Below are positions 1,708 through 47,577 of a stretch of 64,000 nt of DNA, one piece after another (position 1 is the first letter of the stretch; each line of letters opens with the position of its first letter). The stretch lies in NCBI RefSeq assembly GCF_000340215.1, contig NW_006921551.1, positions 1-64,000 of the forward strand. Reading direction: 5' to 3'. The position numbers were made by a program, and so were the translations under genes. Source of the stretch: Pseudocercospora fijiensis CIRAD86. Taxonomy: Eukaryota > Ascomycota > Dothideomycetes > Mycosphaerellales > Mycosphaerellaceae. The notes beneath the pieces are model-generated. The model did no database searches and was not told the DNA's origin. It worked only from the letters and a program-made list of their open reading frames with translations.

Positions 1708-1729
1708 TAGACGCCGTAGTAGTTCGGGT
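1708..1729 (+). repeat. Left TIR of hAT1
   Basis: The first bases pair with the right TIR in the pattern TAGAC-CCG-AGT-GTT-GGTTA. They are followed by a telomere-like GGTTAGGTTAG tract. The same end recurs at 10973. Confidence 0.8.
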
Positions 1730-2047
1730 TAGGTTAGGTTAGTTTACTAAGCTAAAATTCCGGATTAGTTTAGTTCGGTTTGCTAAGAAACTATAGGATT
1801 AGCAGATTCGAACTATAGAATTTATCGGTTTCTAAGAAGTATAAGGATATATACGCAACTTGAAGCATGCCCCTTATAAGACTAGTACTAATAGAATTTC
1901 CGAAAACTTTAATTCTATACGCCTAAGAAAGCATATTATACTATGTATATATACCTAGAGAGTATATAGAGCGCACTATATAGCGCTATATTTTGCGTAT
2001 AGAAACGCTTATAGAGGATACTAAGAACAACTATACTACCTATTACC
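1730..2047. other. Non-coding left end of hAT1
   Basis: I see no ORF here. The sequence is shared with 10995-11291, apart from a short indel near 1835-1860. It may hold subterminal transposase-binding repeats and the 3' UTR of the H3-like gene, but I cannot define either. Confidence 0.5.
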
Positions 2048-2151
2048 TTAGCGAATAAAGACATTCTAGCTAGTAAGAATCTAATCGAGGGCGATAAAAT
2101 CCTTCTATATTATCGTAATACGCCTAGCGTAAATAGCTATAAGTTAGATAG

Positions 2152-2199
2152 CTAAAATAGCATTAGCATAGTTCGAGGGGAGGCAGGAGAGAAATATAT
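2152..2199 (-). other. Predicted intron 2 of H3-like gene 1 (48 bp)
   Basis: The minus-strand sequence begins ATATAT, probably a RIP-altered GTATAT preceded by T, and has GCTAATGC near the 3' end and acceptor TTTTAG. Splicing joins ...IFE-S to I-*-LIAIYARR, matching H3 FEDTNLCAIHAKR without a gap. The same 48-bp intron is at 11396-11443. Confidence 0.75.
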
Positions 2200-2382
2200 A
2201 TTCGAAGATGCGAATTAGGTAGGCTTCTATAGCCTCCTAAAGGGCCTCGATTACGGATCTCTAAAAGCGAAGATCGGCTTAATAGAAGATAGCAATTTCG
2301 CGAATAAGTCGCTAGAAGGGAGCTTTAGGAATAAGGAGCTTATTATCCCTCTAATACCTCCGAATCTTATAAAGGGCTCCGG

Positions 2383-2474
2383 CTAAAGAAGGATTAGTAA
2401 AAAGGAGTAAAGATACTAGCTACGCTGCCGGCTATAGCTACCGGCTATAGCTACCGGCTATAGAGAAAACTTAC
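2383..2474 (-). other. Predicted intron 1 of H3-like gene 1, with 13-bp repeats
   Basis: On the minus strand: donor GTAAGT, three to four tandem copies of a 13-bp CCGGCTATAGCTA-type unit (2428-2463), branch-like TACTAAT and acceptor TTCTTTAG. It splits the Thr codon of the conserved R-x-R-x-G-T motif (A|CC). In hAT2 the intron is 91 bp rather than 92, yet the spliced frame is identical, which supports the model. Confidence 0.85.
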
Positions 2475-2639
2475 TTCCTAAGCGCTATCGACGCTTACTA
2501 CGATTATTACTACTAGTAATAGAAGTACTCGTCGTCGTCTTACGCGGAGTCTTACCTACCGTCGTCTTACGCGGAGCCTTGCCCGTAGTCTACTTTTAAC
2601 TAGCGCGACCGGTAGCGGTACCGGCTATCTTACGTAAAT

Positions 2640-3340
2640 ATACTATATACTTTCTACTAGGTCTAGTTATATTACGACCCTAGGTAGCGGTAGGGCCCTT
2701 CTTACGACTCTTCTAAATTTAGTCGAGTAAATTCGCTATTATAAAAGTCGTCGAATTAGTAAAAAGGTACGTTACGAGGGTATAGAAAGGCGCGCGCGGA
2801 GCGGAGATATAGTAGAGGTAGTAGATATAAAGTATAGAAGTACAGATTTCGACACGAAGATTATATACGGCGAGAGGGGTAGTAACGCGGTATCGCTAAG
2901 CAACTAAGTAAGCTTCGCGTAAGCCCGTAGTAGAGTAACGTTATAGTAAGCAAAGAAGGTAGGTACGGCTAAAAGAGGTAGGAACGGCAAACTTTAAAAT
3001 ATAGCCGGCACCTATAGCCGGTATAGGAAAACGGCAAAAGCCTCCTTTTAATAAATAGTCGGCGTAACAAAGGTAGCCTACTATAATATAGGTATTTTTA
3101 GTAGTTCGATTAGATTCTAAACTAGCTTTCTCGCCTAGAAATAGAAATACCTATCCGCCGTATAGTAAAACGGCGACTCGCTTTATAGGGAGAATCTAGC
3201 AAATTCTACCTAGCAATACTATAATACTATATATACTAGGTTTCTAATTCGTACCCTAGATCTAGGTAGGGCGCGGAGTTGAAATAAGAGGTATAGCCGG
3301 TATATATAGCCGGCAAAGGATATAGAAAGAAGCCTCCTCC
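2640..3340 (-). other. Possible unknown ORF between the two H3-like genes
   Basis: One minus-strand frame is open except for RIP-type TAG/TAA codons and reads, in order, KPSIYSIIVLLGRIC, KRVAVLLYGG*VFLFLGEKA, TYIIVGYLCYADYLLKGG, then APFYTLVTYLFTNSTTFII. It contains two 13-bp repeat clusters (3001-3024 and 3295-3315), which mark introns elsewhere in the element, so it may be a multi-exon gene. I recognise no family; it does not match H4, H2A or H2B. It could also be non-coding. A part (to 12247) is shared with hAT2. Confidence 0.35.
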
Positions 3341-3524
3341 TACTAAAAAGCCGGCCTATCTAGGGAAACCTACCGTAGTATAGATATTCCCTAGTAATAC
3401 GATTAATAGAGAATTAGAGAGCGCTAATAGAAAAGGAGAAGGAGAAGGTATTAAAAGGCTTACGCTCCGAGAGGGGCCGTTCGCCGGGTAAGCGATTAGT
3501 CTAGTTACTAAATACAAATCCTAA

Positions 3525-3962
3525 TTATTCCGCTATAAATCGACGCCGAATCTTAGCTAGAAGCTATAGATCTTTTTATTAAAGAGTAACCCGCTTCGTA
3601 TAGATAGCAAGAAGGTTAGAAAGCTCTAACTCGTTTATAAGAAATGCCTCTAGAGCTTCCTAAAGAGTACTAATCGCCTTAGCCGTAAATCGTATATCGT
3701 ACTTAAAATCTAATATAATTTCTCGGACGAGTCGCTAGAAAGGAGCCTTAGGGATTAAAAGCTCCGTCCCCTTTTTATCTTAGAATTTCCGGATCTCGCG
3801 AAGGGTAATAGTACCTAGTTTAAATCGCCGGCTTTTACCCTTTTTCCTTATAGAAGAATAACTCTTCTTTATGATAGTCTTCGTCCGCCTACTTTTTTCT
3901 CCTACTTTAGCCGAAGCCGCCTTGTTTTTAATACTATTTTACGAGGATCCCCCTTCCTTTAT
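3525..3962 (-). pseudogene. Histone H3-like gene 2 in hAT1 (intronless)
   Basis: On the minus strand, from a putative RIP-altered ATG (ATA at 3960-3962) to TAA at 3525-3527, there are exactly 146 codons without an intron. The tail is Lys/Arg-rich (NKAASAKVGEKSRRTKTIIKK) and runs into RRFKLGTITLREIRKF, the counterpart of H3 RYRPGTVALREIRRYQ. The core then shows LLIPKAPF*RLVREIILDF (alpha 1 region), DIRFTAKAISTL*EALEAFL (alpha 2) and LLAIYTKRVTL**KDL*LLAKIR (loop 2, alpha 3 and C-terminus). The positions of KRVT and KDL follow H3 without gaps. Five or six internal stops fit CAG/CAA to TAG/TAA changes. It is clearly different from H3-like gene 1 in tail, intron content and core residues, so the element carries two H3 paralogues. 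The start is the least certain part. Confidence 0.88.
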
Positions 3963-3989
3963 ATACACTACGAATAGTCCTCCTCTTCC

Positions 3990-4300
3990 GATATCTCGTT
4001 CTCGCTATAGTCTTTCCGTACTTAGCGTCCTTTACCCTTACCCTTTTTTAAGTTCTTAAGGTATCTTTATACGCGTTCGGGCGACGAGGGTATATCGGTA
4101 GTACCTAGAAACTCTCTAAGCCTTTAATCGTAAAAAGATATTAAATGCCTCTTACCTTCTAAACTAAATAGTCTTCTATTAAACCGTTTTAGTAGGCCCT
4201 CGTTAGATTCGTAATTAGTATAGTCGCTATAGGGAGAGGAGGCGGCCGACTTAGTAAGGCCCGAAGAGCCGAATCCGTAAGGTATATTTATATTTTAGAA
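3990..4300 (-). pseudogene. ORF fragment upstream of H3-like gene 2, function unknown
   Basis: A minus-strand frame reads PYGFGSSGLTKSAASSPYSD, then RFNRRLFSLEGKRHLISFYD, DIPSSPERV and an acidic NEISEEEDYS stretch, with stops only of the RIP type. Its frame is offset by one from H3-like gene 2. It could be a separate small gene, or a 5' exon giving the H3-like protein a long N-terminal extension. No domain is recognised. Confidence 0.35.
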
Positions 4301-4480
4301 TATAAGGAAAGGGAAGAAGGAGAGGAAGAGCGAATAGAGATTTAGAAATAGTAGTAGGCGAGCGGGGTAAGTTGCTATAGCAACTACTCTATTTAGGAAT
4401 TTAAAACATACTAGGAACGTATGCCGGCTATATACGCCGGCTATATACGCCGACTATAAGGTTAGTTATATATAGAAACT
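4300..4480. other. Gap after the transposase with one 13-bp repeat cluster
   Basis: This short interval lies downstream of the hAT transposase C-terminus. It contains GCCGGCTATATAC-type repeats at 4421-4452 and no recognisable coding sequence. It may be intergenic or an intron. Confidence 0.4.
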
Positions 4481-7400
4481 CTAGTAAATATAGCTATTTA
4501 CCGGTTATACCTACTAGCTATATTACCTTCTACGTAAACGCTTTACCTCCTTTAAGTCGCCCTTAGCCTATATATACTTCCGCTTCTCGACCTATAGTCG
4601 CCTTCTACCTCCGCTCTCCTCCTCTTCGTTATCGCTAATAAGGGTCTCGCTTAAACTAAATTTCGCATTTTCTTTACGCTCCTAAGTTTCTTCGATTTTA
4701 AGCTTTTCTAATTAGTCGATAAGCTCCTTTAATAAGATATATAGTATCTTACCTCGGCGACTCTAGTAGAGGAGGTAGTATCGGAATACTATAATAGATT
4801 CGAAGGTAGTAGGCGAGTATATTCGATTAAACCGGCCTTAGTAACGAGCGATACTAAAAGATCTCTTATAGCCTATACCTACGCTCGGAATAGCGAAGAC
4901 GTCCTAGGCGATCGAAGGTATCGTTAGAAACTTAGGCTCTAACCGCTATTATATAGCGAGAATATCGTCTCCGAATTCGTCTTAAAGACCGGTAAGATCT
5001 AAATATTATTAGCCCTCTTTCCGAGCCTATAAGTTTAGTACTTACTTACGCTCCGATAGAGATCGAACTCTTCTTTATTAAGTATAGAACTAACTTACTC
5101 TTCTACCTCTACTTCCTACTTACGAAATAGGTAGAATATCGGAGCCTTCTTAGCCTTCCTTTTCCTAATACGACCTATATTTACACTAGTTTCTTTCCGA
5201 CGCTTACTAAATATCTTTTCTAGAACCTCCTAATATCGCTTAGGCTATACCTTATTAGCCTTCTATTCCTCCTTCTACTAGTATATATCCTTTTTAACTA
5301 GGTTTAGTGAGTATATAACGCCGTAGAGCTCCCCGAACGACTCGAAGGTAGTACTATAATATTTATCTAGCTTAGTATAGGAAGCCTTTATAGCTTTCGT
5401 TATAGCTACTTTCTAAGGGACGCTCTTCCTAGCTAGCTTAGCCGCGAGTTCTTTAAGCTTATTAAAGAGCTAGTTATAGTATATAAAGATAAGGTAGATC
5501 GTCGGTCCTCGGGTTCTTCTAATCGTAGTAGTAACCTTTACGTAATGTTTTCTAATATCTACGAGATACTCTACTTAGCGCTATTCGGCGGGTATAAGCG
5601 CGAGCTACTTAATACCCTTAGCATTCTAATAGAGCTCGAGAGCGGTACGTAAAGTATATCCCCTCGTAAGTATATAGAAAGTCGAATCGAGTTAGGTCTT
5701 AATATCTTAGGTAAAACGGAGTAGGCGCTAAGGAGGCCGCTTTTGCTATCGCTTATTCTATACGATATTCTAAGTATCGACTTTAGGGCGCTCGATAAGG
5801 GTCTTTTAAATGGCCTCGAATTAGTTATATCTCTATAAGCTTAAGTTCGTATAGATTGCTAGACGACGAAGCTAGAAAAAGAGAGTTAATACTATTCTAG
5901 GTTGCCGGCTATAGGTACCGGCTATAAGTGCCGGCTATAAGTGCCGGCTTCGGATAAAGGTTATACCTTATATAAAACGAGAGCGAGGCTCTCTACCTTA
6001 TCCTATTTTATTACCGTAACGAGTTTCTCGACTCTCGACTTTACTTTACCCTTATCTAGGACCTTCTATTACTTGTCGTTCGATAGTGCAATTTTAAGCG
6101 TCTTAAAGAGGGCTCGGATCGCGGTTTAAACTATATAAGCGAGATAGGGAAACTTCCGTAGGGATATAACCGCTAATATCGGCTCCTATTCTATAGAGCC
6201 GTTAGGGTTTCTTTTCTTAACTAAGGGTCCTTATTATCTTCCGGGTCCTACGTATCCGAAATCGTAGTAAGCTTAATATTAGGAAGATTAAGCTAGATTA
6301 TAGACCTTGTAATCTCGTCTATATAGTCGATCCTATCGGTACTATTAGTTATTTCGAAGACTAATATAAGTAGACAGTATATATAACGCCTTATATAATG
6401 TTCGATTATTACTAGCGTTGTCTATAGTAATCGAGATTAGTTTCGTAGTTACGCTAACCCTATCTATTACCGTATAGACAAGCTTCGCTATATCCTAACT
6501 AGTATAGGAACCTAGAATTTCTAGGAATCCGATTAGCATTTCCTAGAGTTTCTAATCCGAATTAATAAAGTATAGTATAATAGAGAGGAAGGAGGCCCTT
6601 ATAGTCCGGCTTAACTAGCTATCGATAGTAATAGCTACTCGGCGAGTATTACGGAGAATCTTCCGAATATCGTCTAACGTAGCCTCTTTATTCTTCTCGA
6701 ATATAGTACGCTACGTAGTCGCGCCTAGAAATGTAGAGGGGTACTTTATAAGATATAGGTATATCTTCTATATAGAATCCCTTTCGAAGAAGTCTTCTAG
6801 AAGACCGTTTATAGCTAACATTTCGTTTACTAGTTGCTTAAAATCTTCGGGGGAGAAATCGGAAGCCTTTAATACTTAAGCTTCCTTCTACGTAGCCTAT
6901 AAAAACTAGTAGTATTTATAGGGTTAAGTTAAGGACCCTCTAGCTATAGCTAGCAGCTATAGCCGGTAGCTATAGCCGGTAGCTATAGCCGGCAGCTACG
7001 GTCGGTATATTTAGAAGACGTACCTCTTTCTTAAACGCCGTATCTACCTTAACCCTTACCTCCCCTTAAGATTCCCGATACCGTTTAGAACGGAGATAGT
7101 TAGTAGGCGATAAATTCCTATCCCTTAGCTTCGGGTATTTTAAGATCGAACTATAGAATTTATAGACAATTACTAGTTAACCTTTTAGATACGAACTCGT
7201 ATTACGGTATAATGCCCCCTCCGTAAAAAATTTCTAGAATGTGTCTATTCGATCCTTACTACCCTATCGCATCGAGTCCTTCTATAGTTTATACTCCCTT
7301 AAACGTAAGTAAAAAGGGAACTATATCTTATAGATCTATTAATTAAACTGCTTAGTATACTCGGGTTTCTAAAGATACGCCTAGCTAGCCTTTTCGAAGA

Positions 7401-7700
7401 TATCCGGGTTAATACTTAATGTTCGTATCTCTTCGAATAACCTTCTTCTTAGACTCTATAAAGGTAAGGACCGGACGGTAGTACCCTATAACGAAATCCT
7501 ACTACTAGGTTACGAAGAGGATAAATCTAGCCTTAATCGTCGTCTAGTACTCGATAGGCTCGAAGGTAAGTATATAGCCTCGTCTCGACGTCGTTACGAT
7601 CTAGTTCGTATACTAGACTATCTCGCCTATCGTCTCGTAGTTACTCTTCCTAGTATAGCGCCTAATATATATATAATATCGTTCGTTATATTTTAAAGTT
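4480..7700 (-). pseudogene. hAT-superfamily transposase, copy 1
   Basis: Coding is on the minus strand and parallels the plus-strand copy at 30000-30644 plus 61883-64000. In order it shows a region with FEPIEYQTTIKARF (near 7580), AIAIDS*LSR (the hAT 'LDGW' first-Asp region, near 6620), ITIDNASNN (the hAT D-N region, near 6440), a C-terminal region with AAKLAKKSVP and LDKYYRTTFKSFGELYGVTYL (about 5450-5300), and DVFAIPS-SFSIARYQGRFNRIYSP (about 4900-4800), the hAT C-terminal dimerisation segment. Introns with 13-bp repeats lie near 5880-5960 and 6945-7030. Broken by many TAG/TAA codons. The superfamily assignment is firm; the clade is not determined. Confidence 0.85.
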
Positions 7701-7749
7701 TTATACGGAGAGGTTAAGAGTAGTAGATATATACTAGTAGTTATAGGGA

Positions 7750-9250
7750 AACACCCTTTCTTTTATAGTATCGTATAGTTAGGAATAGCTAGGTAGTAAG
7801 TATATAGCTACCTTTTTTTGTTTCCTAGCTACCCTAGCTACCCTAAATACCTAATTTTTTTCTTAGCTACCTTAGCTAACCGAATTTTTCCCTTTTATAC
7901 GACGGTTCTCTCCTACTAACGGAATAGAGCTGCTATAGCAATCGAGCTTGTTTTTAGTCTTAATCCTTCCTCCTTTAGCGTAAGATACTCGATAAGCAAA
8001 TGCTCGGGCCGAGTCTAACTACGAAACCTATATCTAACTAATACCTCCTTTAACTAATCCTACTTCTCGAACTCCCTCCGCTTCTTAGTAAAGACCTTAA
8101 AGAGCGAACGAGCTTCGTTAGGCGACTACGGAGTAGTCGAGATAAAGCCGTATTACTAAAGTAGGTAATTACTAGGAACCTTATATAGAGGTCGAGAGAA
8201 ATCTAACGGGAAACTATCCTATTAGTAGCTTAGATTCCGGATATAAGCCCTCTCTACTAGAGTAAAGATTTTATATAGTAACGGTACTCTTCCCTCGGAA
8301 ATCGCTTTCTATTCGACTATTAGTATCTACTAGCTACGAATACCGGCTATAGCTACTAGCTATAAAACACTTACTTTTACGTCCTCTACCTCGAGTAATA
8401 CCTTCGCCGCTCTAAGATATCTAGCCTCTATATTATTAATCGTAAGATATTTTTCCTTTATCCTCGTAAAGGCGTTCCTCTAATACTTATAAAGAAATCT
8501 CTACTCTATATCGAGGATATAAAGACGACTAGCCTTAATTCCAATCTTCGTAAGCTTTTCGTAGTGGCTTTAACGATAATTATCTAGATTAATAGGAGTT
8601 ATGCCTTAGACCTTTACTAGCGCCTCGTCTCTTTCGCTATACTTAATTTACTTCTAGCCCTTATCGTCTATAGCGTTAGGCCCTAAGACTACGCCTATAA
8701 ATAGATCGACGTATAGTATCTCCTTACTTTTTTAGTCCCGTTATTTATAGTAATAAGCTCTTACGTAGCATCTAAAGTCTAGTATTACTACTCTCGGCTA
8801 TCTAAATATCTCCGTTATTATCGATCGTATCGATAGAGGTAGTAGGAATAGGTCTAAATAGTGTTAGTTACCGATTTCGAGAAAGGATACCGGCTACGCT
8901 ACCGGCTATATATGCCGGCTATAGCTACCGGCTATATTAACTTACGCTAGTAGAAATTGCTCCTCGAAAACTAGCCGTAATTGTTTCCTCCTCTAAGCCT
9001 TCTCCTAGCTTATCTTCTACTTCTAACCTTCGCTCTTTTTAATAGGCGCTAGCTATCGGTAGAATGCCTCGTTACGCGCCTTCCTTCTCTTATCCTTAGC
9101 TCTTTTATCCTCGCCTATATTATCCTTCCTCTCGCGATCTCGTATAGAATTTTTCTTTATAGAGTACTCTTCTTTAGTCTTACGCTTTTTTTTAGATACT
9201 AAGGTAAAACAAACTCGCGTTCTTTACTATCTTCTATTTAGCGCGCGGCG
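7750..9250 (-). pseudogene. Uncharacterised coding region upstream of the hAT transposase, copy 1
   Basis: The minus-strand coding matches the plus-strand copy at 28440-29900. It contains a Lys/Arg/Glu-rich start (SKKKRKTREEYS), VDLFIGVVLGPNAIDNKG, SYYEKLTKIRIKASRLYILD and RPEHLLIEYLTLKEEGLRL. Introns marked by 13-bp repeats sit at about 8338-8410 and 8870-8960. It may be the N-terminal part of the transposase gene or a separate accessory gene; I recognise no domain and cannot choose. Confidence 0.5.
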
Positions 9251-9839
9251 CGCTTCTATCTTGCTATTTAAAGGAGAAGGGGGGGAGGGGGGGGGGTATA
9301 GCGTCGATAGTTATTATAGGTATAGAAGAGGAAGAAGATAAAAGGTATAAGAATATCGCGAAGCCCTAATTGTTACTACCTACGTAACGTTATCTAGGTA
9401 AGCTTTTATAACTACGGTAACTACGCCCTAGTAACGGTAACTACGCCCTAATAATAGTAACTACGACCTAGTAACGGCAATCGCTATTATTAAAGCAATC
9501 GCGGGCGGGGTAAATATAATCTAGTTGCTGTAAAAGCCGGCAATAATAGCCGGCAGTCGGGTAGGAGTATACTTATAATAAAATTAATATAGTCTCTCGC
9601 TACTACGACCTATTAACGGCAATGCCTATAGTTAAGGCATCCGCGAGCGACCTAAATATAACCTAGTTACTATTATAGCCGGTAATAGTAGCCGGTAGTC
9701 GGATAAGAGTATATTTATAATAAAACCGACATAGTCTCTAGTTCTAACTAGGAATCTATATAGTTTAGAAAAACTAACCCGGAACTAGGGAGCTAGTTTG
9801 CCGCTAAGAAACTAAACTATATACGTTTTATAGTTCGTA
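9250..9839. other. Repeat-rich terminal region of hAT1, possible 5' regulatory region
   Basis: It holds a G-tract (about 9279-9296), a ~20-bp direct repeat GGTAACTACGCCCTAGTAAC about three times (9410-9480), two ~120-bp direct repeats (about 9490-9600 and 9610-9730), and 13-bp-like GCCGG motifs at 9530-9556 and 9682-9700. The arrangement is conserved in hAT2 (27960-28440). These are candidates for transposase binding or promoter function, from position only. Confidence 0.5.
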
Positions 9840-9861
9840 ACCTAAACCACTTCGGGGTCTA
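9840..9861 (-). repeat. Right TIR of hAT1
   Basis: On the minus strand this reads TAGACCCCGAAGTGGTTTAG and onwards. An equivalent end occurs at 27834 on the plus strand. The TIR is the outer edge of a ~110-bp block shared by both copies. Confidence 0.8.
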
Positions 9862-10440
9862 GTTACTAGATAGCTCTTTCTACGCTTTATTAAAGGCTTA
9901 AGGAATAGGGGGTTAACTATAGCTATTACGCTAACTATAACCGAGTTAATAGTATAGAGGTAGTAAAGATCTAAGTCGTATATACCTTCTCCGCTTTATA
10001 GCTAACTAATAGAGAGGCGGTTAAACTACTAAAAATAGATAGTTTTAATATTAGCTAGCGGAGATATTAACGGATACGTTAAGAGCTTAGATTAAAGAAG
10101 GTATTATCGCGAGATAAATAGATAGAGGTAGAAGAAGAGATAGTAGAGATCTTATAGGAAGAGCTCGAGAAGTCTGTAGTAGAATCCTTTGGCTAACGGT
10201 ACCTGTAGCTAACGGTACCTATACACCTATATCAGATCCAAACACAACACCATTAGTAGAGGTCGGCTACATTATACAGCTTCCTTACTAAATCCTAAAG
10301 GGTTACGAGTTCGCTACGAGTAGGCGCGAGAGTACTATAGAGCGATTATTATACCCGGCCCTAGTTACGTAATATTAGCAGATGCTTGCTATAAATTCGA
10401 GTATTAGGGGATATAGACGTTACGAAAACTTTTTTCCTAA
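9862..10440 (+). pseudogene. Unknown coding fragment with helix-turn-helix-like motif
   Basis: A plus-strand frame with RIP-type stops only (about 9890-10200) reads TLY*RLKE*GVNYSYYANYN, then LTNREAVKLLKIDSFNIS, RRYQRIRQELRLKK (the Q is a TAA) and EVEEEIVEIL. The 'AVKLL...S.RRYQRIR.ELRLKK' pattern looks like a helix-turn-helix of the kind that starts many transposases. About 10205-10260 keeps several CA dinucleotides and is less RIP-mutated. No family is assigned, and it is not the continuation of the Gypsy at 1-1707. Confidence 0.35.
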
Positions 10441-10972: not shown

Positions 10973-12247
10973 TAGACGCCGTAGTAGTTCGGGTTAGGTT
11001 AGGTTAGTTTGCTAAGCTAAAATTCCGGGTTAGTTTAGTTCGGTTTGCTAAGAAACTATGGTATTAGTAGGTTCGAACTATAGAATTTATCGGTTTGTAA
11101 CACTTAAAGCATGCCCTTTATAAGACTAGTACTAATAGAATTTCCGAAGACTTTAATTCTATATGCCTAAGAAGGCATATTATACTATATATATATACCT
11201 AGAGAGTATATAGAGCGCGCTATATAGCGCTATATTTTGCGTATAGAAACGCTTATAGAGGACACTAAGAACAAATACGCTACCTATTACCCTAGCGAAT
11301 AAAGACATTCTAGCTAGTAAGAATCTAATTAAGGGCGATAAAATCCTTCTATATTACCGTAATACGCTTAGCGTAAATAGCTATAAGCTAGATAGCTAAA
11401 ATAGTATTAGTATAGTTCGAAAAGAGGTAGAAGAGAAATATATATTCGAAGATGCGAATTAGGTAGGCTTCTATAGCCTCTTAAAGGGCCTCGATTGCGG
11501 ATCTTTAAAAGCGAAGATCGGCTTAATAGAAGATAGCAATTTCGCGAACAAGTCGCTAGAAGGGAGCTTTAAGAATAAGGAGCTTATTACCCCTCTAATA
11601 CCTCCGAATCTTACGAAGGGCTACGGCTAAAGAAGGATTAGTAAAAAGGAGTAAAGATACCGGCTACGCTACCGGCTATACTACCGGCTATAGCTGCCGG
11701 CTATAAAGAAAACTTACTTCCTAAGCGCTATCGACGCTTACTACGATTATTGCTACTAGTAGTAGAAGCACTCGTCGTCGTCTTACGCAGAGTCTTACCC
11801 GCCGTCGTTTTACGCGGAGCCTTACCCGTAGTCTGCTTTTAACTAGCGCGACCGGTAGCGGTAGCGGCTATCTTACGTAAATATACTATACTCTTTCTAC
11901 TAGGTCTAGTTATATTACGACCCTAAGTAGCGGTAGGGCCCTTCTTACGACCCTTCTAAATTTAGTCGAGTAGATTCGCTACTATAAAAGTCGTCGAATT
12001 AGTAAAAAGGTACGTTACGAAGGTATAAAAAGGCGCGCGCGGAGCGGAGATATAGTAGAGGTAGTAGACGTAGAGCGTAGAAGTATAGGTATCGATACGA
12101 AGATTATATACGGCGAGAGGAGTAGTAACGCGGTATCGCTAGGCAACTAAGTAAGCTTCGCGTAAGCCCGTAGTAGAGTAACGTTATAGTAAGTAAAGAA
12201 GGTAGGTACGGCTAAAAGAGGTAGGAACGGCAAACTTTAAAATATAG
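10973..12247 (-). mobile_element. hAT2, left part
   Basis: It is collinear with 1708-3005 of hAT1, from the TIR to the sequence AAAATATAG, where identity stops abruptly at 12247. It contains the second copy of H3-like gene 1. Preceded by ATTTTTTA; the complementary TAAAAAAT precedes the right end at 27834. Confidence 0.85.
11292..11871 (-). pseudogene. Histone H3-like gene 1, copy in hAT2
   Basis: Minus strand, from ATA (putative former ATG, 11869-11871) to TAG at 11292-11294. Removing introns 11627-11717 and 11396-11443 leaves 441 nt, 147 codons, as in hAT1. This copy is closer to canonical H3: the junction reads RLGTVALRKIRRYQ (H3: RPGTVALREIRRYQ), then KAPF*RLVREIA, ADLRF*RSAIEAL*EAIEAYL and IYAKRITVI*KDF. 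The two copies differ by conservative substitutions and mostly RIP-type changes while keeping frame and introns, so both descend from a functional gene. Intron 1 again carries the 13-bp repeats (about 11655-11705). Confidence 0.9.
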
Positions 12248-27720: not shown

Positions 27721-28757
27721 AATATAAGATTTCTAGATTTTCTAATAAACTAAACCTAGAAAAAAGAAATAGGTAATATAATATTTTAGCTTTCTTTTAG
27801 TTATACTTTACTCTTTTTAGAAATATAAAAAATTAGACCCCGAAGTAGTTTAGGTTACGAACTATAAAACGTATATAGTTTAGTTTCTTAGCGGCAAACT
27901 AGCTCCCTAGTTCTAGGTTAGTTTTTCTAAACTATATGGATTCCTAGTTCGAACTAGAGACTATATCGGTTTTGTTATAAACATACTCTTATCCGACTGC
28001 CGGCTACTATTGCCGGCTACAATAGTAACTAGGTTATATTTAAGTCGCTCGCGGATGCCCTAACTATAGGTATTACCGTTAATAGGTCGCAATAGCGAGA
28101 GACTATACTAGTTTTGTTATAGGTGTACTCCTACCCGACGACTAGCTACTATTGCCGGCTTTTATTGTAACTAGATTATATTTACCCCGCCCGCGATTGC
28201 CTTAATAATAGCGATTGCCGTTACTAGGTCGTAGTTGCCGTTACTAGGGCGTAGTTACTATTACTAGGGCGTAGTTACCGTAGTTATAAAAGCTTATCTA
28301 GATAACGCTACGTAGGCGGTAACAATTAGGGCTTCGCGACATTCTTATACCTTTTATCTTCTTCCTCTTCTATACCTATAATAACTATCGACGCTACGCC
28401 CTCCCCCCTCTCCCTTTCCCCCCCTCCTCCTTAAAATAGTAAGACAAAAGCGCGCCGCGCGCTAAATAGAAGATAGTAAAGAACGCGAGTTTATTTTGCC
28501 TTAGTATCTAAAAAAAAGCGTAAGACTAGAGAGGAGTACTCTATAAATAAAAATTCTATATAAGATCGCGAGAGGAAGGACAATATAGACGAGGATAAAA
28601 GAGCTAAGGATAAGAGAAGGAAGGCGCGTAACGAGGCATTCTATCGATAGCTAGCGCCTATTAAAAAGAGCGAAGGTTAAAAGTAGAAGATAAGCTAAGA
28701 GAAGGCTTAAAGGAGGAAAGAATTGCGGCTAGTTTTCGAGGAGCAATTTCTACTAGC

Positions 28758-28849
28758 GTAAGTTAATATAGCTAGTAGCTATAGCCGGCATATATAGCCG
28801 GTAGCGTAGCCGGCATCCTTTCTCGAAATCGGTAACTAATACTATTTAG
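28758..28849 (+). other. Predicted intron with 13-bp repeats (hAT2)
   Basis: GTAAGT donor, three to four CCGGCATATATAG/CCGGTAGCGTAG-type units (28775-28815), GTAACTAAT branch and TATTTAG acceptor; 92 bp. Confidence 0.8.
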
Positions 28850-29330
28850 TCCTATTCCTACTATCTCTAACGATACGATCGATAATAACGGAGATATTTA
28901 GATAGCCGAGAGCAGTAATACTAGACTTTAGAATGCTACGTAAGAGCTTGTTACTACAAATAACGGGACTAAAAAAAGTAAGGAGATACTATACGTCGAT
29001 CTATTTATAGGCGTAGTCTTAGGGCCTAACGCTATAGACAATAAGGGCTAGGAGTAGATTAAGTATAGCGAAAGAGACAAGGCGCTAGTAAAGGTCTAAG
29101 GCATAACTCCTATTAATCTAGATAATTATCGTTAAAGCTACTACGAAAAGCTTACGAAGATTAGAATTAAGGCTAGTCGTCTTTATATCCTCGATATAGA
29201 GTAGAGATTTCTTTATAAGTATTAGAGGAACGCCTTTACGAGTATAAAGGAAAAATATCTTACGATTAATAATATAGAGGCTAGATATCTTAGAGCGGCG
29301 AAGGTATTACTCGAGGTAGAGGACGTAAAA

Positions 29331-29396
29331 GTAAGTGTTTTATAGCTAGTAGCTATAGCCGGTATTCGTAGCTAGTAGATACTAATAGTCGAATAG
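29331..29396 (+). other. Predicted intron with 13-bp repeats (hAT2)
   Basis: GTAAGT donor, AGCTATAGCCGG-type repeats, ATACTAATAG branch and GAATAG acceptor; 66 bp. Its hAT1 counterpart is near 8340-8400. Confidence 0.8.
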
Positions 29397-29949
29397 AAAG
29401 CGATTTCCGAGGGAAGAGTACCGTTACTATATAAAATCTTTACTCTAGTAGAGAGGGCTTATATCCGGAATCTAAGCTACTAATAGGATAGTTTCCCGTT
29501 AGATTTCTCTCGACCTCTATATAAGGTTCCTAGTAATTACCTACTTTAGTAATACGGCTTTATCTCGACTACTCCGTAGTCGCCTAACGAAGCTCGTTCG
29601 CTCTTTAAGGTCTTTACTAAGAAGCGGAGGGAGTTCGAGAAGTAGGATTAGTTAAAGGAGGTATTAGTTAGATATAGGTTTCGTAGTTAGACTCGGCCCG
29701 AGCATTTGCTTATCGAGTATCTTACGCTAAAGGAGGAAGGATTAAGACTAAAAACAAGCTCGATTGCTATAGTAGCTCTATTCCGTTAGTAGGAGAGAAC
29801 CGTCGTATAAAAGGGAAAAATTCGGTTAGCTAAGGTAGCTAAGAAAAAAATTAGGTATTTAGGGTAGCTAGGGTAGCTAGGAAACAAAAAAAGGTAGCTA
29901 TATACTTACTACCTAGCTATTCCTAACTATACGATACTGTAAAAGAAAG

Positions 29950-30644
29950 GGTGTTTCCCTATAACTACTAGTATATATCTACTACTCTTAACCTCTCCGT
30001 ATAAAACTTTAAAATATAACGAACGATATTATATATATATTAGGCGCTATACTAGGAAGAGTAACTACGAGACGATAGGCGAGATAGTCTAGTATACGAA
30101 CTAGATCGTAACGACGTCGAGACGAGGCTATATACTTACCTTCGAGCCTATCGAGTACTAGACGACGATTAAGGCTAGATTTATCCTCTTCGTAACCTAG
30201 TAGTAGGATTTCGTTATAGGGTACTACCGTCCGGTCCTTACCTTTATAGAGTCTAAGAAGAAGGTTATTCGAAGGGATACGAACATTAAGTATTAACCCG
30301 GATATCTTCGAAAAGGCTAGCTAGGCGTATCTTTAGAACCCCGACTATACCGAGCAGTTTAATTAATAGATCTATAAGATATAGTTCCCTTTTTACTTAC
30401 GTTTAAGGGAGTATAAACTACGGAAGGACTCGATACGATAGGGTAGTAAGGATCGAATAGATATATCCTAGAAATTTTTTACGGAGGGGGCATTATACCG
30501 TAATACGAGTTCGTATCTAAAAGGTTAACTAGTAATTATCTATAAATTCTATAGTTCGATCTTAAAATACCTAAAGCTAAGGGATAGGAATTTATCGCCT
30601 ACTAACTATCTCCGTTCTAAACAGTATCGGGAATCTTAAGGGGA
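29950..30644 (+). pseudogene. hAT transposase, N-terminal part (hAT2)
   Basis: YNERYYIYIRRYTRKSNYE (about 30008-30065), then RRGYILTFEPIEY-TTIKAR, LFVT***DFVIGYYRPVLTF and FDLKIPKAKG-EFIAY-LSPF (about 30560-30620). The reading is cut at 30644 by the array and continues at 61883 with the next exon residues, as in hAT1. This segment probably carries the N-terminal DNA-binding region, but I see no clear BED finger. Confidence 0.6.
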
Positions 30645-31619
30645 ATATCTACGTAAGCCTTATACTTATTTATACTTTTTATATAAATTCGACCTAATAG
30701 AATCTAATACGACCTAGAATAGTCGAGAAAACTAGCTAATACTAGCTAGAACCTCAAATATTCTAATGCAAATATTTTAATATCCCTGTTTAAGATTTAA
30801 GTAACGCACGGCCGCGCCTACGCTATATACGCGAACATTGTAATTTGTAATACTAGAATATTTGGCTCTAGGGTCTAGGTCGCTCGGGCGGACAATCCGG
30901 TAAAAGATGTTTCCGGAATAATTTTAGAATCGGTTAGGGTACTTAGATAGTAAGTTTCTATTAGGGAGAATAGTATAAGTGCTCTAATAGTATACCAAAA
31001 TTAAGGGTTTAAAACTTATCCCTAACCCTGTCGCCCTTAGTAAGCGGTCTAGGTCGCTCGGGCGGACAATCTAGTAAAAGATATTTCCGGAATAATTTTA
31101 GAATCGTTTAGGGTACTTAGATAGTAAGTTTCTATTAAGGAAAATAGTATAAGTGCCCTAGTAGTATACTAGATTAAACTTTTAGTACTTAGCCTTAACC
31201 CTATACGACTAATTCCGCCGTTCTAATATCGTAGATACTTTAAATAAATCTCTCCGGTCTTACCCTATCTATTAACCTTACTAGATAGTAAGGACTAATA
31301 TCCTAGAATTTCCGACTTATTTCTATAGGCACTTAGTACTAGATCTAGTAGTAGAACTATACCCCACTACCCGATTGCGTACTTAGAACGTAGAAATAAT
31401 ACTATCGTCTCCGAGACCCTTTATTTCTTTACCTAGAGATTTTAATCGAATTACTTAGAAACCCTAGCTAATTTAGATAAAAGCTAAGTACTAAATATAG
31501 TACTAGGGTACTTAGAACCTTAGTATTACTAGTATAATACTCCTAGGTCGTAGTAGAACGCGTAGTACCCCGAGTCGGCTTCTAGAACTCTAAATACTAT
31601 ATCGGCCGTAATACCCCCG
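30645..31619. repeat. Array unit 1 (975 bp, uninterrupted)
   Basis: The clean reference unit with two ~175-bp subrepeats (near 30900-31200). Its distal half holds repeated AGGGTACTTAG words and is unique within the unit. Confidence 0.88.
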
Positions 31620-31886
31620 ATATCTACGTAAGCCTTATACTTATTTATACTTTTTATATAAATTCGACCTAATAAAATCTAATACGACCTAGAATAGTCG
31701 AGAAAACTAGCTAATACTAGCTAGAACCTCAAATATTCTAATGCAAATATTTTGATGTCCCTATTTAAGATTTATGTAACGTACGGCCGCGCCTACGCTA
31801 TATACGCGAACATTATTATTTGTAATACTAGAATATTTGGCTCTAGGGTCTAGGTCGCTCGGGCGGACAATCCGGTAAAAGATGTT

Positions 31887-32082
31887 TGTAAGAAGGGTAT
31901 GTTAGTAGGTAGATAGGGTAGTAGTAGGTACAAGTAGTATTCGATAAGGAGCTAGGAGGAGAGGGAGGAAGGTAGGAGAGTTGGCCTAACGCCAAGCGCC
32001 AAGCCCTGCCTGAGGCATTAAGACCCTAGCTTTACTCGGCCTGATTATATGCTAATTACGTGTAGCCTCTTTAGCCCTAATA
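31887..32082 (-). repeat. 3' LTR of Gypsy A' (left)
   Basis: 196 bp, TGTAAGAAGG ... AGCCCTAATA (CA changed to TA). It contains a purine-rich AGGAGGAGAGGGAGGAAGG tract. Confidence 0.93.
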
Positions 32083-33299: not shown

Positions 33300-36200
33300 G
33301 TAGTAACATTATAAGCTTTTAGCCTTCTTCTTGTTCTTTACGCTAGTCTAATACTTATCTAACAACTCGGTTATGTCCTTAAAGGAGTCTTTAGCTTCCT
33401 ATAAGTCCTATTCTAGTAAATAGCCTTGCTATCTTAGCAGGTACTCCTTCTTGCCTTGCCTAGTCCGGTGCTTTAGGATACGTTCTATAGACTATAGCTC
33501 CTTACTATCCGCTAGTATATCTTCGTGTTCTATAGGGGCTTCATCCCCTTCGCGTAGGTAGTACGGCTTAAGGAGGGATATATAGAAGGTGTTATAGATA
33601 GTATAATAAGGTAGGAGCTATAACTAATAGGCCTATACGGAGGAGCCCTTAACTTCTCGAATGCGGAATAGGCTAATGTATCTTAGTGCGAGCTTGGGCC
33701 TTGTTTTGCCGTTAGGTAATAGGTGCTTACGGATGCGGAGGTTCTTAGTACTTAGTATAACTATATCGCCTTGTTTGAAGGTTATCGGCGTATAGTGCTT
33801 ATCGTAGTAGGTCTTTTAGTACTCTTAAGCCTTTGTTAACTTCTCGGCTATCTTAGTATAGATTTCTCGTATCTTCTAGATACGTTCTATTGCCGCTAGT
33901 GTCTCTAGTACTTAACGCGCTTCCCTTTCCTTACGCTCGGCCTCGAGCGAGGTAAATAGATCTTATAGCAACGCGGCGTTTTAACCTATTATAGCTATAT
34001 ATAGTAAAACCTTAGTTAATAAGTATACACTATTGTTATATACGAATTCTATAGGCTATAGGAGATTGACCCAATCCTTAGGATTCTCGTTAATATAACT
34101 GCGTAGGTACTGCTATAGGGTAGCATTCTGCCTCTCTATTTAACCGTTAGTCTATAGATAGAAGGCTATTAATAGCCGATGCTTTAGTCTTAGCTATAGG
34201 CATATTTCGCTCTAATAGTGCGATGTGAATATCGTGCCCCTATCGGAGACTATCCCCTTAGGGGTTCCCTAATAGGTGCAGAAGATATTAGTCTATAGCG
34301 CTTCTACTATATTAATAGCAGTCTAATCCTTCCGCGCCGGGATATATCGAGCGCCTTTAGTAAATCGATCTACTACAATAAGGATAGCATTATATATATC
34401 CTTGCTGCCCCTACGCTTAGCGGGAGGAAGGCCTGTAATAAAGTCTATTATAAGCTTAGCAAATGGCTTCTTTAGAACAGGGAGTAAAGACAACTCGCTA
34501 AATAGTAAGTGCTTTAGTGCTTTAACTCGCTAGTATACTGCATAGGTCTGTATATACTCCTTTATATGCCGCTTACTATTTAGCTAGTAGTATATACGCG
34601 ATAGTAACTCGTGCGACCTCTCTGTGCTATAGTAACTAGCGAGCTTACTATTATAGTGCCTCTTTAAAAGCTCTTGTCTAATCGATTATTTAGCGGGGAC
34701 ATAGTATCTGCCCTTGAACTTTAAGTAACCTTTGTCGTCGATCGACTAATTATTGTTACTCTTACCGGATCGAGTCGCCCGCCTACTTACAAGCTTATTA
34801 ATGCGCTCGATAGCAAAGGCGTCCCTCTGCTAAGTACGCAATAGCTTATCTATAAACGATTGACTATCCCCGTTTGCAAGGTTATTTAATAGTACCCGTG
34901 CTGTCGAACGAGGTACGTATTATATATATCTAATAGTACTAGTAGCCGGATTAACTGCAACCTCTTCTATAGTGCTATCGCTATAGATAGTAATATCTTT
35001 AATCGAGTCGTTATAGCTCGAGCGATCTACGTCCTTTTTAACGTGCACTAGAAGAACGACAACTCCGCTATAGTATTTGTTGCCGCCGCGGGGTCCGGAA
35101 GTCCGCTTATTCTGCGCCTACTTTATAGTAAGGTCTATAGCAATCTTATACTACAGGGTTAGAAACAGAGAATTAATGTGTTAGGTTTCGCTATCGTAAT
35201 TAGGTCGCCTCGATAGGCTATTAGTAGGGTTACTTACGCCTAGCCGATATAATATATTAAAATCGAACCCGGCGAGGTAGACGGCCTATCTAGCCTATCG
35301 ACCTATAACCCTAGCGACCTTCGTAATTCTACGGAGGTTGTTATAGTCCGTATAGACCTGAATAGTGTACTAGGCACTATCGAGATAGTGTCTCTAGTGC
35401 TTAAAGGCCTTAATAATAGCTAGGAGCTCTTGCTCGTAGGTCTCGTAGCGACGCTTAGCGTTAATTATCTTCCTTAAGAAGAAGGCAATCGGGTGCTAGT
35501 AATTGTTATTAGCCTGTTATAACATAATAGCTAATATAGCAAACTGTAAAGCGTTAGTCTTAATGCGGATCTGTTTGCTTAGTACGAAATAGTGCAATAA
35601 GGGGACTTTAGTAAAGCGCCGCTTTAAACCGTTAAAAGCGGCTTGTACTCTATTAGTCTATTTGAACTCTCTAGTCGGGTTGGCCTTAGTTTTAGTAAGC
35701 TTAGTTAGTAGCATTATATGCCTCGAATAGCCCTTAATAAATCGGCGATAGAAGTTAGCAAAACCGAGGAACGACTATAGCTCCTTAATTGACGTAGGAA
35801 TAGGCTATTTAGTAATAGTTTTAATCCGATTAGGGTTAGCCTTAACACCCTTAGTTAATACGATAAAACTAAGGAAGGCTACCTCCTTAGCAGCAAAGGT
35901 GCATTTAGAAGGCTTGCAATACAAGCTATAGGCTCGTAGGCGATCGAGCACCTTACGGACTATAGCCTAGTACTCCGCAATATCGGGGGAGTGTATATAA
36001 ACTAGAATGTTATCTAGGTAAACTATATAGAGGTAGTCTAATAGGCCTAATAGGGCCCGATTGATATAGGACTAGAATGTTGTAGGGGCATTAGCTAAGC
36101 CGAATGGCATAACTAAGTATTCGAAATAGCTATAGCGAGTATAGAAGGCTATTTTCTATTCGTCGCCCTTACGAATGCGGATACGATAGTACGCATCCTT

Positions 36201-37160
36201 AATGTCTAGTATAGTATAATAGTAGGTACCTAAAAGGCGATCGAGGGTCTTATTAATAAGAGGAAGTAGATAGCGGTCTTTAATAGTAACAGTATTAAGT
36301 CTACGGTAATCGACGTATAACCGTAGGCTACTATCCTTCTTTAGAACAAACAGGATTAGTGCACTAGCAGGGCTGTTACTATACCGAATGCGACCGTTAG
36401 CTAGGTTTTCCTTTAGGTACTTACGCAATATAGCGAGCTCTCGTTTACTAAGGTTGTAGAGGGGACTAAAAGGAACCTCTTTGCCCTCTATAATGTTAAT
36501 CTTATAATCTGTCTCCTTGAATATAGGCAATGTCGATGCTAAGTAGTGTTTAAACACATTAATATAGGTCTCTCGAATAGGCTCTAGTATACGTTCGAGC
36601 TAATTAGAGTCTATGCCGTTAGGGGGCATAGGTTCTTCGTTATCCCTACCGAGCAGGTCGGTAGTCGGATTAGCTAGGGTTAGGTTGCTAATAAATAGGA
36701 CCCTAATATCGTTAGGGCACTTGCTAATATTAATGTGTTTAATGTCCTCTTTCCTAGCGATTCTAAATCGCTACTATTAGCTGCCTAGGTCTATAACTAT
36801 AGCGTAGTACTTAAGAACAGGGTTGCTAATAATAATATCGGATAGGAGGCTGTCTATATCTACCGCGTAGGTAGTAAAGTTTAGTAGGCGTTCATTTCCG
36901 AGGTCGTCTTTTAGAACTATAGGAACATAGTAGGCTCTATAGGTCAAGTGCCGAGCGTTATTAAACTAAGCAAGGGTTGGTAGGTTAGTCTTCGGCAGTT
37001 GTCGAAGGTCTAATTGCTTAGCTAGGTAATAGCTAATAAGGGCGCTAACTGAATTTCCGGGGTCTAGTATAACCTTTGCCTTATAGTTAGTATCGGGCCT
37101 AGATATAAGACAGGTACGTATAATAGCTAGTACAATGTCGATGGTCTTACGCCGCATAAG
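33300..37160 (-). pseudogene. Gypsy A' pol: protease, RT, RNase H, integrase, chromodomain
   Basis: Minus strand. Protease region: KVILDPGNSVSALISYY (37080-37025), with DPG where retropepsins have DSG/DTG. RT: an open stretch 36557-36156 with [25 protein letters not shown] and LDIKDAYYRI, followed by YIVYLDN (near 36020; the second Asp of the YLDD box is Asn by GAC to AAC). RNase H: about 35600-35200. Integrase: GLPPAKRRGSKDIYNAIL (about 34440-34390), GTPKGIVSDRGTIFTSHY (about 34265-34215), AFYL*TNG*IER*N. Chromodomain: ERILKHRTRQGKKEYLLR*QG (about 33480-33420), with E*DL*EAKDSFKDITELLDK. Compared with 1-1707 it has far fewer stops, so it documents the ancestral protein best. Confidence 0.9.
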
Positions 37161-39015: not shown

Positions 39016-39723
39016 TCCGGAATAATTTTAGAATCGGTTAGGGTACTTAGATAGTAAGTTTCTATTAGGGAGAATAGTATAAGTGCTCTAATAGTATACT
39101 AAAATTAAGGTTTTAAAACTTATCCCTAACCCTATCGCCCTTAGTAAGCGGTCTAGGTCGCTCGGGCGGACAATCCGGTAAAAGATATTTCCGGAATAAT
39201 TTTAAAATCGTTTAGGGTACTTAGATAGTAAGTTTCTATTAAGGAAAATAGTATAAGTGCCCTAGTAGTATACTAGATTAAACTTTTAGTACTTAGCCTT
39301 AACCCTATACGACTAATTCCGCCGTTCTAATATTATAGATACTTTAAATAAATCTCTCCGGTCCTACCCTATCTACTAACCTTACTAGATAGTAAGGACT
39401 AATATCCTAGAATTTCCGACTTATTTCTATAGGCACTTAGTACTAGATCTAGTAGTAGAACTATACCCTACTACCCGATTGCGTACTTAGAACGTAGAAA
39501 TAATACTATCGTCTCCAAGACCCTTTATTTCTTTACCTAGAGATTTTAATCGAATTACTTAGAAACCCTAGCTAATTTAGATAAAAGCTAAGTACTAAAT
39601 ATAGTACTAGGGTACTTAGAACCTTAGTATTACTAGTATAATACTCCTAGGTCGTAGTAGAACGCGTAGTACCCCGAGTCGGCTTCTAGAACTCTAAATA
39701 CTATATCGGCCGTAATACCCCCG
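39016..39723. repeat. Array unit 2, second part
   Basis: With 31620-31886 it makes a 975-bp unit matching unit 1, split by Gypsy A' inside the first subrepeat. Confidence 0.88.
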
Positions 39724-40843
39724 ATATCTACGTAAGCCTTATACTTATTTATACTTTTTATATAAGTTCGACCTAATAGAATCTAATACGACCTAGAATA
39801 GTCGAGAAAACTAGCTAATACTAGCTAGAACCTCAAATATTCTAATACAAATATTTTGATGTCCCTATTTAAGATTTAAGTAACATACGGCCGCGCCTAC
39901 GCTATATACGCGAACATTATAATTTGTAATACTAGAATATTTGGCTCTAGGGTCTAGGTCGCTCGGGCGGACAATCCGGTAAAAGATGTTTCCGGAATAA
40001 TTTTAGAATCGACTTACTAGGCCTAGATCGTAGGTTACTAGTAAGTAAAATAATAGGATAGCTCTAATAGTATACTCGATTATAGTTTCTAAATCTATCC
40101 CTAACCCTATCGCCCTTAGTAAGCGGTCTAGGTCGCTCGGGCGGACAATTCGGTAAAAGATATTTCCGGAATAATTTTAGAATTGGTTAGGGTACTTAGA
40201 TAGTAAGTTTCTATTAGGGAGAATAGGATAAGTGCTCTAATAGTATACTAAAATTAAGGGTTTAAAGCTTATCCCTAACCCTGTCGCCCTTAGTAAGCGG
40301 TCTAGGTCGCTCGGGCGGACAATCCGGTAAAAGATATTTCCGGAATAATTTTAGAATCGTTTAGGGTACTTAGATAGTAAGTTTCTATTAAGGAAAATAG
40401 TATAAGTGCCCTAGTAGTATACTAGATTAAACTTTTAGTACTTAGCCTTAACCCTATACGACTAATTCCGCCGTTCTAATATCGTAGATACTTTAAATAA
40501 ATCTCTCCGGTCCTACCCTATCTATTAACCTTACTAGATAGTAAGGACTAATATCCTAGAATTTCCGACTTATTTCTATAGGCACTTAGTACTAGATCTA
40601 GTAGTAGAACTATACCCTACTACCCGATTGCGTACTTAGAACGTAGAAATAATACTATCGTCTCCGAGACTCTTTATTTCTTTACCTAGAGATTTTAATC
40701 GAATTACTTAGAAACCCTAGCTAATTTAGATAAAAGCTAAGTACTAAATATAGTACTAGGGTACTTAGAACCTTAGTATTACTAGTATAATACTCCTAGG
40801 TCGTAGTAGAACGCGTAGTACTCCGAGTCGGCTTCTAGAACTC
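39724..40843. repeat. Array unit 3, main part
   Basis: Completed by 47761-47789; total 1,149 bp. It has a third subrepeat (about 39990-40160) with a divergent tail (GACTTACTAGGCCTAGATCG) absent from units 1 and 2, explaining the 174-bp difference. Confidence 0.88.
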
Positions 40844-41021
40844 TATTAAGATATTAATTAAGAGGCTATCTAAATTAATAACGAGTTAAAGAAGGAAGAG
40901 AGAGAGAGCCTCTCTCGCGGAAGAGGCTTTTATCCGCTCGGCGGATGCCTTAGGTATCAAGTTACGTAACCTAAAGTTACGTAATCTCGAATTTTATATA
41001 TAAGTCGCTAAGATCGTAATA
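40844..41021 (-). repeat. 3' LTR of Gypsy B (left)
   Basis: 178 bp; ends GTAATA where the right LTR ends GTAACA. Confidence 0.92.
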
Positions 41022-41149
41022 GTACTCTCCCCCTTTATAGGCGACGTCTACGGCGCTTTACTTACTTATTACTAAAGTATTACGATTATAGCGACTAATA
41101 GTAGAGCGCTTAGTCGTATTAGTATCGCGGAGTTAGTAATACGCGGCGG

Positions 41150-44100: not shown

Positions 44101-45480
44101 ATCTCGTTTAGCTTCCTATAATCTATATAGAAGCGCAGACCGCTACCCGGCTTCTTAACGAATAATACGGGTAAGGAATACTACGAGGTAGATACTTAAA
44201 TAAAGCCTTTATCGAGGTTGTCTCTTAAATAGTTATATAGGACTTCTAGCTCTTCGTACGATATACTATAGAGCGGACTATACGTCGTTTCCTTACCTTC
44301 GATAATATCGATATAGTAGTTCTACCCTAGTTAGTATAGTAGTAGCTTCTTTATATCTTCCTACGAGAACAACGTTAACCTACTATAGTAGTACTAAGGG
44401 ACCTTATCGGTAGGGTTAATATACTTCTTCTTAGCTATTTCTTTCTCTATATCTCGTAATAATATAGCGAATCCGACCGAGTCCTTCTTCTTTATTTGCT
44501 AGTGAAAGACCTATACGCTTATTAGGGCTATAGTTATACTAGTAACGTAAATAAGCAGAGGCGGTAAACGTCTTTATACTAGCAGCGGCGACGGATAGCA
44601 CGGAGGTAAGGGCGGAGATAAGAACTAAGTAGATCCTAATCGGCGTGTAAAGTAGTCACGCTATACGTAATACTTTCGTATTAAGTCGATAAGCTTTACT
44701 ATATTAGTATTATGTAATAGGTTATAAACTAGTTATTATTACTAATAGTACTATGTCGCTATAGGCTCGGTATAAGCTAGCGTGTCGGTATCTTCCTAAT
44801 CGGATAGGCCGTAGGTACGAACGATAGTATATAAGTCGTTATAGAGTTCCTTATAATAGTCGGAGTTAATCTATACTTAGTTAAGCTTCTAGTCGATACG
44901 AGAGTTGTATTTATTAAGCTAGGGTCGTCTAAGAATAATCGGGTAGTAACCTAGTATAGTAAGATAGAAGGCTCTATATTCGATATAGCCGTTAATATTA
45001 ACTATCGCTCTAGTATACTAAGTAATATCTGCTATAAAGCTACCGTTAAAGGTAGTTAATCTACGAGGCTTCTTTAAGTTATAGATAGGGAGCTAGTATT
45101 AGTATGCGTAATATAAGTCAATAAAAGATAAACTAGTATAACCGTAATTAACTATTACTAATAATTAATATTCGATATTATACCCTATATCTAGTATACT
45201 AGACTAAGGTTTATTATAAGCTATTAAAGTATAAGGCAAGACGAGATATTAATTATCGCCCTCGGGTATAATACTTCCTAATAATACTAATAAACTAATC
45301 TTTAAATCCTTCTACTATTAATATTTCTTCCTACAATTATAGTATAGGTCCTTTAGAAATAACGGTATAGGTATAATTATAGGTAACTCTATTAGTATAG
45401 GCTCTTAAGCGCGACTTTGCTTAAGAGCTATACTTTTCCCTCCTTATTACTACTCTCGGCGGTAGGCTTATCGTTTATAG
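41150..45480 (-). pseudogene. Gypsy B pol: RT, RNase H, integrase, chromodomain
   Basis: Minus strand. RT: SPLYSISYEELEVLYNYL (about 44280-44225), [19 protein letters not shown] (about 44135-44080), GLFEYRVILFRLYN and TAYLDNILIYSN (about 43850-43815; YLDD is YLDN by RIP). RNase H: IIETDASNYITAGII (about 43400-43355), [16 protein letters not shown]. Then a linker carrying the telomere-type tracts (42744-42904). Integrase: NLILVIVDRLTKIRYFILF (about 42175-42118), DTITSDRSTQFIS, S*SDKLTKRLNEVIKGYL. Chromodomain: EVERILDIKRKGKNI*YKVK (about 41320-41260), with ENVTNTLEVVEDYY. A complete chromovirus pol order with many RIP stops. Confidence 0.88.
42744..42904. repeat. Telomere-type CCCTAA tracts in Gypsy B pol
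   Basis: Five units (one GCCTAA variant) at 42744-42773 and eight perfect CCCTAA units at 42857-42904, separated by ~83 bp that itself starts with GGGTTA and ends CTTAGGGTTACG. On the coding strand the second tract reads as repeated Arg-Val, so the hexamers keep the frame. Confidence 0.95.
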
Positions 45481-47420: not shown

Positions 47421-47577
47421 GTATATAGGTCTTAATACGATATAAGGTTTGTTAGCGCTATCGTATAACGAGAAGCGTAAAAGGGCGATAGTAATCGCCG
47501 GCGATATAATAATTCTTCGTATAAATAAGCGATAGTACCTACGACGTTATCGTAGGTAATAAAGGAACTCGTTATTC

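Follow-up and report, generated by a model that had tools for sequence, protein, structure and literature searches.

The first 64,000 nucleotides of contig NW_006921551.1 of Pseudocercospora fijiensis CIRAD86 (the window) hold a decayed hAT-like transposon with histone H3-like sequences between its ends, which raises the question of whether the element once had histone genes of its own or carried host histone sequence by accident. The kind of element is already published, although the preliminary description of this DNA knew of no hAT element with an H3 gene. In the text available to us, Dhillon et al. 2019 (PMC6710886) count 784 H3-like copies across 471 RIP-inactivated hAT elements of P. fijiensis, place the original H3 on scaffold 6, note a second copy with a 16-residue insertion and, reporting exon-exon junctions, infer a captured host transcript; no introns are reported in that text. 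The available part of Manning et al. 2013 (PMC3538342) describes a hAT element of Pyrenophora tritici-repentis that carries an H3-like gene with ESTs (H3L), and already raises altered nucleosomes. What is new relative to the 2019 paper is the presence of intron signals in both H3 genes; in the portions available of the literature on H3-carrying hAT elements we found no mention of such introns. The element thus adds no new kind, and what matters is the correction to the published account that we suggest, from accidental capture of a host transcript to H3 variants as standing genes of the element.

The element and its parts are as follows.

1708–9861, genes on the minus strand: hAT-like element of 8,154 bp; homology to other copies ends at 9861–9873
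1708–1727, plus strand: left terminal inverted repeat (TIR)
9842–9861, minus strand: right terminal inverted repeat
4688–6638, minus strand: hAT-like transposase relic in three frames (core 6381–6638, middle 5197–5598, C-terminal part 4688–4912)
3525–4285, minus strand: H3-A gene, N-terminal extension and H3 fold (PF00125, E = 1.6e-23)
4105–4155, minus strand: candidate intron of H3-A, 51 nt (49–50 nt in subfamily 2, defined below)
2475–2628, minus strand: H3-B exon 1, N-tail bearing repeats similar to GKAPRKTT
2383–2474, minus strand: H3-B intron 1, 92 nt, close to the position of host H3 intron 2
2200–2382, minus strand: H3-B exon 2, containing most of the H3 fold (PF00125, E = 1.7e-13)
2152–2199, minus strand: H3-B intron 2, 48 nt, as long as the published 16-residue insertion
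2048–2151, minus strand: H3-B exon 3

The preliminary description had placed an H3 gene inside the TIRs of a transposon, and H3-B does lie between inverted ends at 1708 and 9861, beside the transposase relic. H3-A is a second, different H3-like gene in the same element, absent from that description; the order on the minus strand is transposase relic, H3-A, H3-B. The inverted ends, a feature of hAT elements, are identical at 15 of 20 positions, and the flanks GTAACTTG and GTTACTAG are alike at six of eight, the hAT hallmark being an 8-bp target-site duplication. At the right border homology stops at 9861–9873 in 21/21 right-end matches among the matches listed. From its motifs we take the transposase relic to be hAT-like. 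No hAT family was matched by the relic in the Pfam search, which returned for it only a sub-threshold PF21787 (RNase H) match (E = 0.15 for the window copy and 3e-4 for copy L022); across six read-through frames of the window element, the Pfam matches were those of the two H3-like genes only. The transposase of the H3-carrying P. fijiensis element is hAT according to the available text of PMC6710886. That the hAT identity leans on our reading of motifs and on that text, with Pfam below threshold, is a point against regarding the H3 sequences as genes of the element. Upstream of the transposase core, ∼2.8 kb (7000–9861) match other copies and gave no Pfam match; this stretch may hold the transposase start or a further gene. 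A 13-bp tandem motif (CCGGCTATAGCTA-like) occurs at 2424–2463 and at several places between 2400 and 9000, in both orientations, that is, in H3-B intron 1 and between the genes, with a copy number that differs among element copies. A search of a plasmid collection gave no match.

The window element very likely belongs to the hAT-H3 family of Dhillon et al. 2019, to which we matched it by copy counts and the contig-6 gene. As far as the available text of PMC6710886 goes, the two are alike in RIP decay, hundreds of copies, TIRs, one or two H3-like copies, the 16-residue insertion in the second copy, an intact H3 on scaffold or contig 6 and a genome of ∼74 Mb. They differ in that introns are indicated here in both genes and not in the paper, in length (9.5–9.9 kb for the paper's full-length element against 8,154 bp) and in that the paper's copies resemble H3 exon 3, whereas H3-A has a long N-terminal part.

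The genome searched comprised 73.9 Mb in 30 contigs and gave 772 first-look histone candidates. In-frame stops were present in 148 of the 150 scored hits, the two stop-free hits being the H3 gene on contig 6 and, on contig 5, a CenH3 gene. Searching the genome DNA with H3-B gave 812 candidates; among the best 40, which were scored, at least 12 rows (query included) were 86–100% identical to the query, on contigs 11, 12, 17, 20 and 23, and others were near 80%. We call the former subfamily 1 and the latter, the major one, subfamily 2. Duplication with the element, as claimed earlier, extends to hundreds of genome copies. For alignment, 20 loci were chosen among the better-scoring of the 150 hits, and four were added from the subfamily of the window copy. 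As L029 is the same locus as L003, it was left out of the H3-A counts. H3-A and H3-B, in that order and on the transposase strand, are common to both subfamilies, which are ∼80% identical: both genes are in order in the window element, in L029–L032 and at eight of the 20 major-subfamily loci, these reaching most of H3-B, while the remaining 12 stretches stop within H3-B or short of it. Further copies in the window are the following.

10973–12247, minus strand: left part of a second element, holding the second H3-B copy (11292–11871)
27831–30644, plus strand: likely right part of the second element, inverted; matches 7061–9864 in reverse; 8-bp flank ATTTTTTA
61942–64000, plus strand: start of a third copy, with H3-A and H3-B past the window (C20:65009–65359 and 66737–67315)

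The H3-B copy at 11292 thus sits in a separate element beginning at 10973, not in the 1708–9861 element. The pieces at 10973–12247 and 27831–30644 both have the flank ATTTTTTA (8/8 alike) and are likely one element, although so AT-rich a flank is no proof. They lie in opposite orientation, as if split by an inversion, and the middle is absent.

For H3-B at 2048–2628, the coordinates, minus strand, motif order, two introns and 147 codons of the preliminary description were all reproduced: removal of the 92 and 48 nt introns leaves 441 nt, or 147 codons including the stop. In the copy at 11292–11871, also on the minus strand, the introns measure 91 and 48 nt and splicing again yields 441 nt, so that, as had been claimed, the copies differ in intron length but not in spliced length. 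The histone-fold check proposed there gave PF00125 matches to the exon-2 piece of each copy (E = 1.7e-13 for 2048–2628 and 4.5e-15 for 11292–11871), and the likeness to H3 is therefore not due to chance; both H3-like genes, H3-A and H3-B, combine the PF00125 fold with the H3 motif order. Both window copies of H3-B have in-frame TAA/TAG codons, and ATA at the place of the start codon.

Intron 1 of H3-B begins with GTAAGT and ends with TTTAG in 14/14 aligned copies and has a branch-like motif, ACTAAT in 13 of them and GCTAGT in one; its position is offset by 3 nt from that of host H3 intron 2, with identical phase. Intron 2 is 48 nt long in all 14 aligned copies. Its 5′ site reads ATATAT in both window copies (preceded by T in the window). 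Conversion of TG to TA by RIP would make ATATAT from a GT site, so GT would be expected in other copies, and it was found: GTATGT is present in three of the 14 aligned copies, and genome-wide there are 95 matches to GTATRT against 209 to ATATRT, with none for the reversed-pattern controls. The branch-like motif together with the 3′ site of this intron has 346 genome matches. Judged from these signals, the published ‘16-AA insertion’ is most likely the 48-nt intron of H3-B.

H3-A has its fold at 3525–3830 on the minus strand (3546–3893 in the genome search for histones). Its reading frame can be followed to an ATG, which is ATA in some copies; in L003, ∼134 residues precede the fold. Extension and fold are joined in frame in 20/20 subfamily-2 copies after removal of a 49–50-nt segment, and in 0/20 without its removal. 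The segment runs from G(C/T)AAGA to TTTCTAG and is likely a GC–AG intron in subfamily 2, the 5′ site being GC in 15 of 20 copies and GT in five. Two subfamily-1 copies reach the start. L003 is in frame with or without the 51-nt segment, the 5′ site of which is TT; the window copy has GT at this site and loses the frame through a private 1-nt deletion near 3906. The H3-A intron is therefore less secure than those of H3-B, and the GC in 15/20 subfamily-2 copies and the TT in L003 count against the H3 sequences as genes of the element.

These introns bear directly on the 2019 proposal, under which an intronless host H3 transcript or a retrocopy was captured. At the position of host intron 2 H3-A is uninterrupted, as such a capture would leave it, and exon-exon junctions are reported in the available text of PMC6710886. 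The absence of introns that marks an H3 retrocopy was nevertheless not found: H3-B has two introns, one of them 3 nt away from the place of host intron 2, and H3-A has one of its own, even if intron gain after capture is possible. The introns in H3-B and H3-A thus do not support capture of an intronless transcript, which we consider improbable. Because the intron marks are in both H3 genes, these were likely real genes of the element before it decayed, not copies of host mRNA.

A tree with H3 and CenH3, as the preliminary description had proposed, gave an H3-A clade (98/99) and an H3-B clade (100/99) with no supported join between them, both outside a CenH3-like fork whose own support is only 81/73. 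Descent from CenH3 rather than H3 would suit the long N-terminal part of H3-A and the short runs LILKAPF and QEATEAFL that it has in common with P0013, a Dothideomycete CenH3-like protein. It is nonetheless very improbable, as loop 1 is not lengthened in H3-A or H3-B as it is in host CenH3, four representatives are 53–65% identical to host H3 and 46–55% to host CenH3, and the tree sets both genes outside that weakly supported fork. At the sensitivity of the search, no close relative of H3-A or H3-B was found among 5.8 billion proteins. With H3-A, 39 of 744 candidates passed, all with a query coverage of at most 59%; with H3-B, eight of 13 passed, and these are ordinary or moderately divergent H3. 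No match in either search was named Pyrenophora. Two long, very divergent H3-like proteins were found with H3-A, P0033 (279 aa, Pestalotiopsis sp.) and P0018 (267 aa).

RIP changes CpA to TpA and makes transitions only. Against the usual composition thresholds for RIP, TpA excess with CpA/TpG loss was found in 16/16 blocks of 4 kb. All element H3 copies examined are broken, by TAA or TAG; there is no TGA in the aligned copies and one among the 150 scored hits. Stops occur in 20 codon columns (H3-A fold, 25 copies; H3-B exons, 14 copies), five of which have CAA, CAG, TGG or CGA in another copy and ten of which, by hand count, fall at a glutamine of host H3. RIP is likely to have killed the element copies.

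A serious rival is passive carriage (transduplication), in which a host H3 was picked up by accident, amplified unused and then destroyed by RIP. This is the published view in the available text of PMC6710886, and it accords with the broken state of every copy examined, the only two of the 150 scored hits lacking stops being host genes. We compared subfamilies 1 and 2 by codon position using transversions alone (purine/pyrimidine), since RIP makes only transitions. Summed over the H3-A fold and all H3-B exons, the counts at the three positions were 12/214, 8/214 and 20/213, a weak third-position excess in a test whose positive control gave no signal. The H3-A tail (2/31, 3/31 and 2/31) was left out of this sum, and parts of the H3-A extension and 5′ flank had zero countable columns. 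The transposase stretches, meant as the positive control, showed no codon periodicity (p = 0.16, 0.38 and 0.41), although these stretches cross frames; among sliding windows, 6862–7461 gave the strongest signal (p = 0.002, uncorrected for window number). Beyond the weak third-position excess, periodicity did not show in transposase or H3, which would fit passive carriage. The H3-B introns (2383–2474 and 2152–2199) had 1/126 transversions between subfamilies against 28/338 in the exons, which runs against simple constraint on the exons. Both the weak transversion test and introns less divergent than exons are points against genes of the element.

Indels give a different picture of the fold. Between the subfamilies there are zero frame-breaking indels in the H3-B exons and the H3-A fold, while 19 of 26 events in the spacer, where the alignment is rough, are not multiples of 3. 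The H3-A tail and fold stretch has two such events out of three (sum +6), located ahead of the fold near the 1-nt deletion of the window copy, and the transposase stretch has three out of six. Passive carriage does not readily account for a fold kept free of frame breaks at ∼53–65% identity to host H3, nor for two different H3 genes, both with intron signals, in frame across subfamilies; we regard it as possible but would not favour it.

Two divergent, apparently spliced H3 genes in a fixed order by the transposase suggest that they belonged to the element's standing set of genes. We see an even chance that the decayed hAT-like transposon had H3-A and H3-B as spliced, working genes for what are likely divergent H3 proteins, pairing with host H4 and altering its own chromatin. 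The element would have carried both beside the transposase as spliced genes; their proteins would pair with host H4, the resulting nucleosomes would alter the chromatin on the element's own DNA, and RIP (CpA to TpA) would then disable the copies. Splicing, protein production and action on chromatin are here what we infer from the DNA. ESTs of H3L in the Pyrenophora hAT element (PMC3538342, available text) support the H3 sequences as genes of the element. That element, as described there, likewise has a hAT transposase and a divergent H3-like gene between TIRs, is amplified, and has an H3L that groups with neither H3 nor CenH3; it differs in its sizes (5.6 and 2.3 kb), in having one H3L each and in being mostly intact, with ESTs. 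With a Pyrenophora relative that is largely intact and represented by ESTs (PMC3538342, same text), transposon-encoded chromatin is a testable idea. Viral histones (PMC9145170, in the part available) offer a parallel in that a selfish genome has its own histone gene; here the genome is that of a DNA transposon, and its Pfam matches are two H3-like genes only. More tentatively, and with some doubt on our part, certain fungal hAT transposons may make their own chromatin, using two H3 variants, both spliced and fast-diverging, of which one has a GKAPRKTT-repeat tail and the other a long N-terminal extension, for element-specific nucleosomes that aid transposition or evade silencing; P. fijiensis and Pyrenophora would then represent a recurrent strategy, not two accidents of capture.

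Elsewhere in the window there is another large repeat family (39690–43249, 43227–48909, 47756–51278, 56148–61848 and 30645–31887), with pieces of up to 5.7 kb that are 96–99% identical and contain internal repeats. An open frame at 3–446 is a relic that, by its motif, we take to resemble a reverse transcriptase; a second copy, ∼79% identical, lies at 35118–36581.
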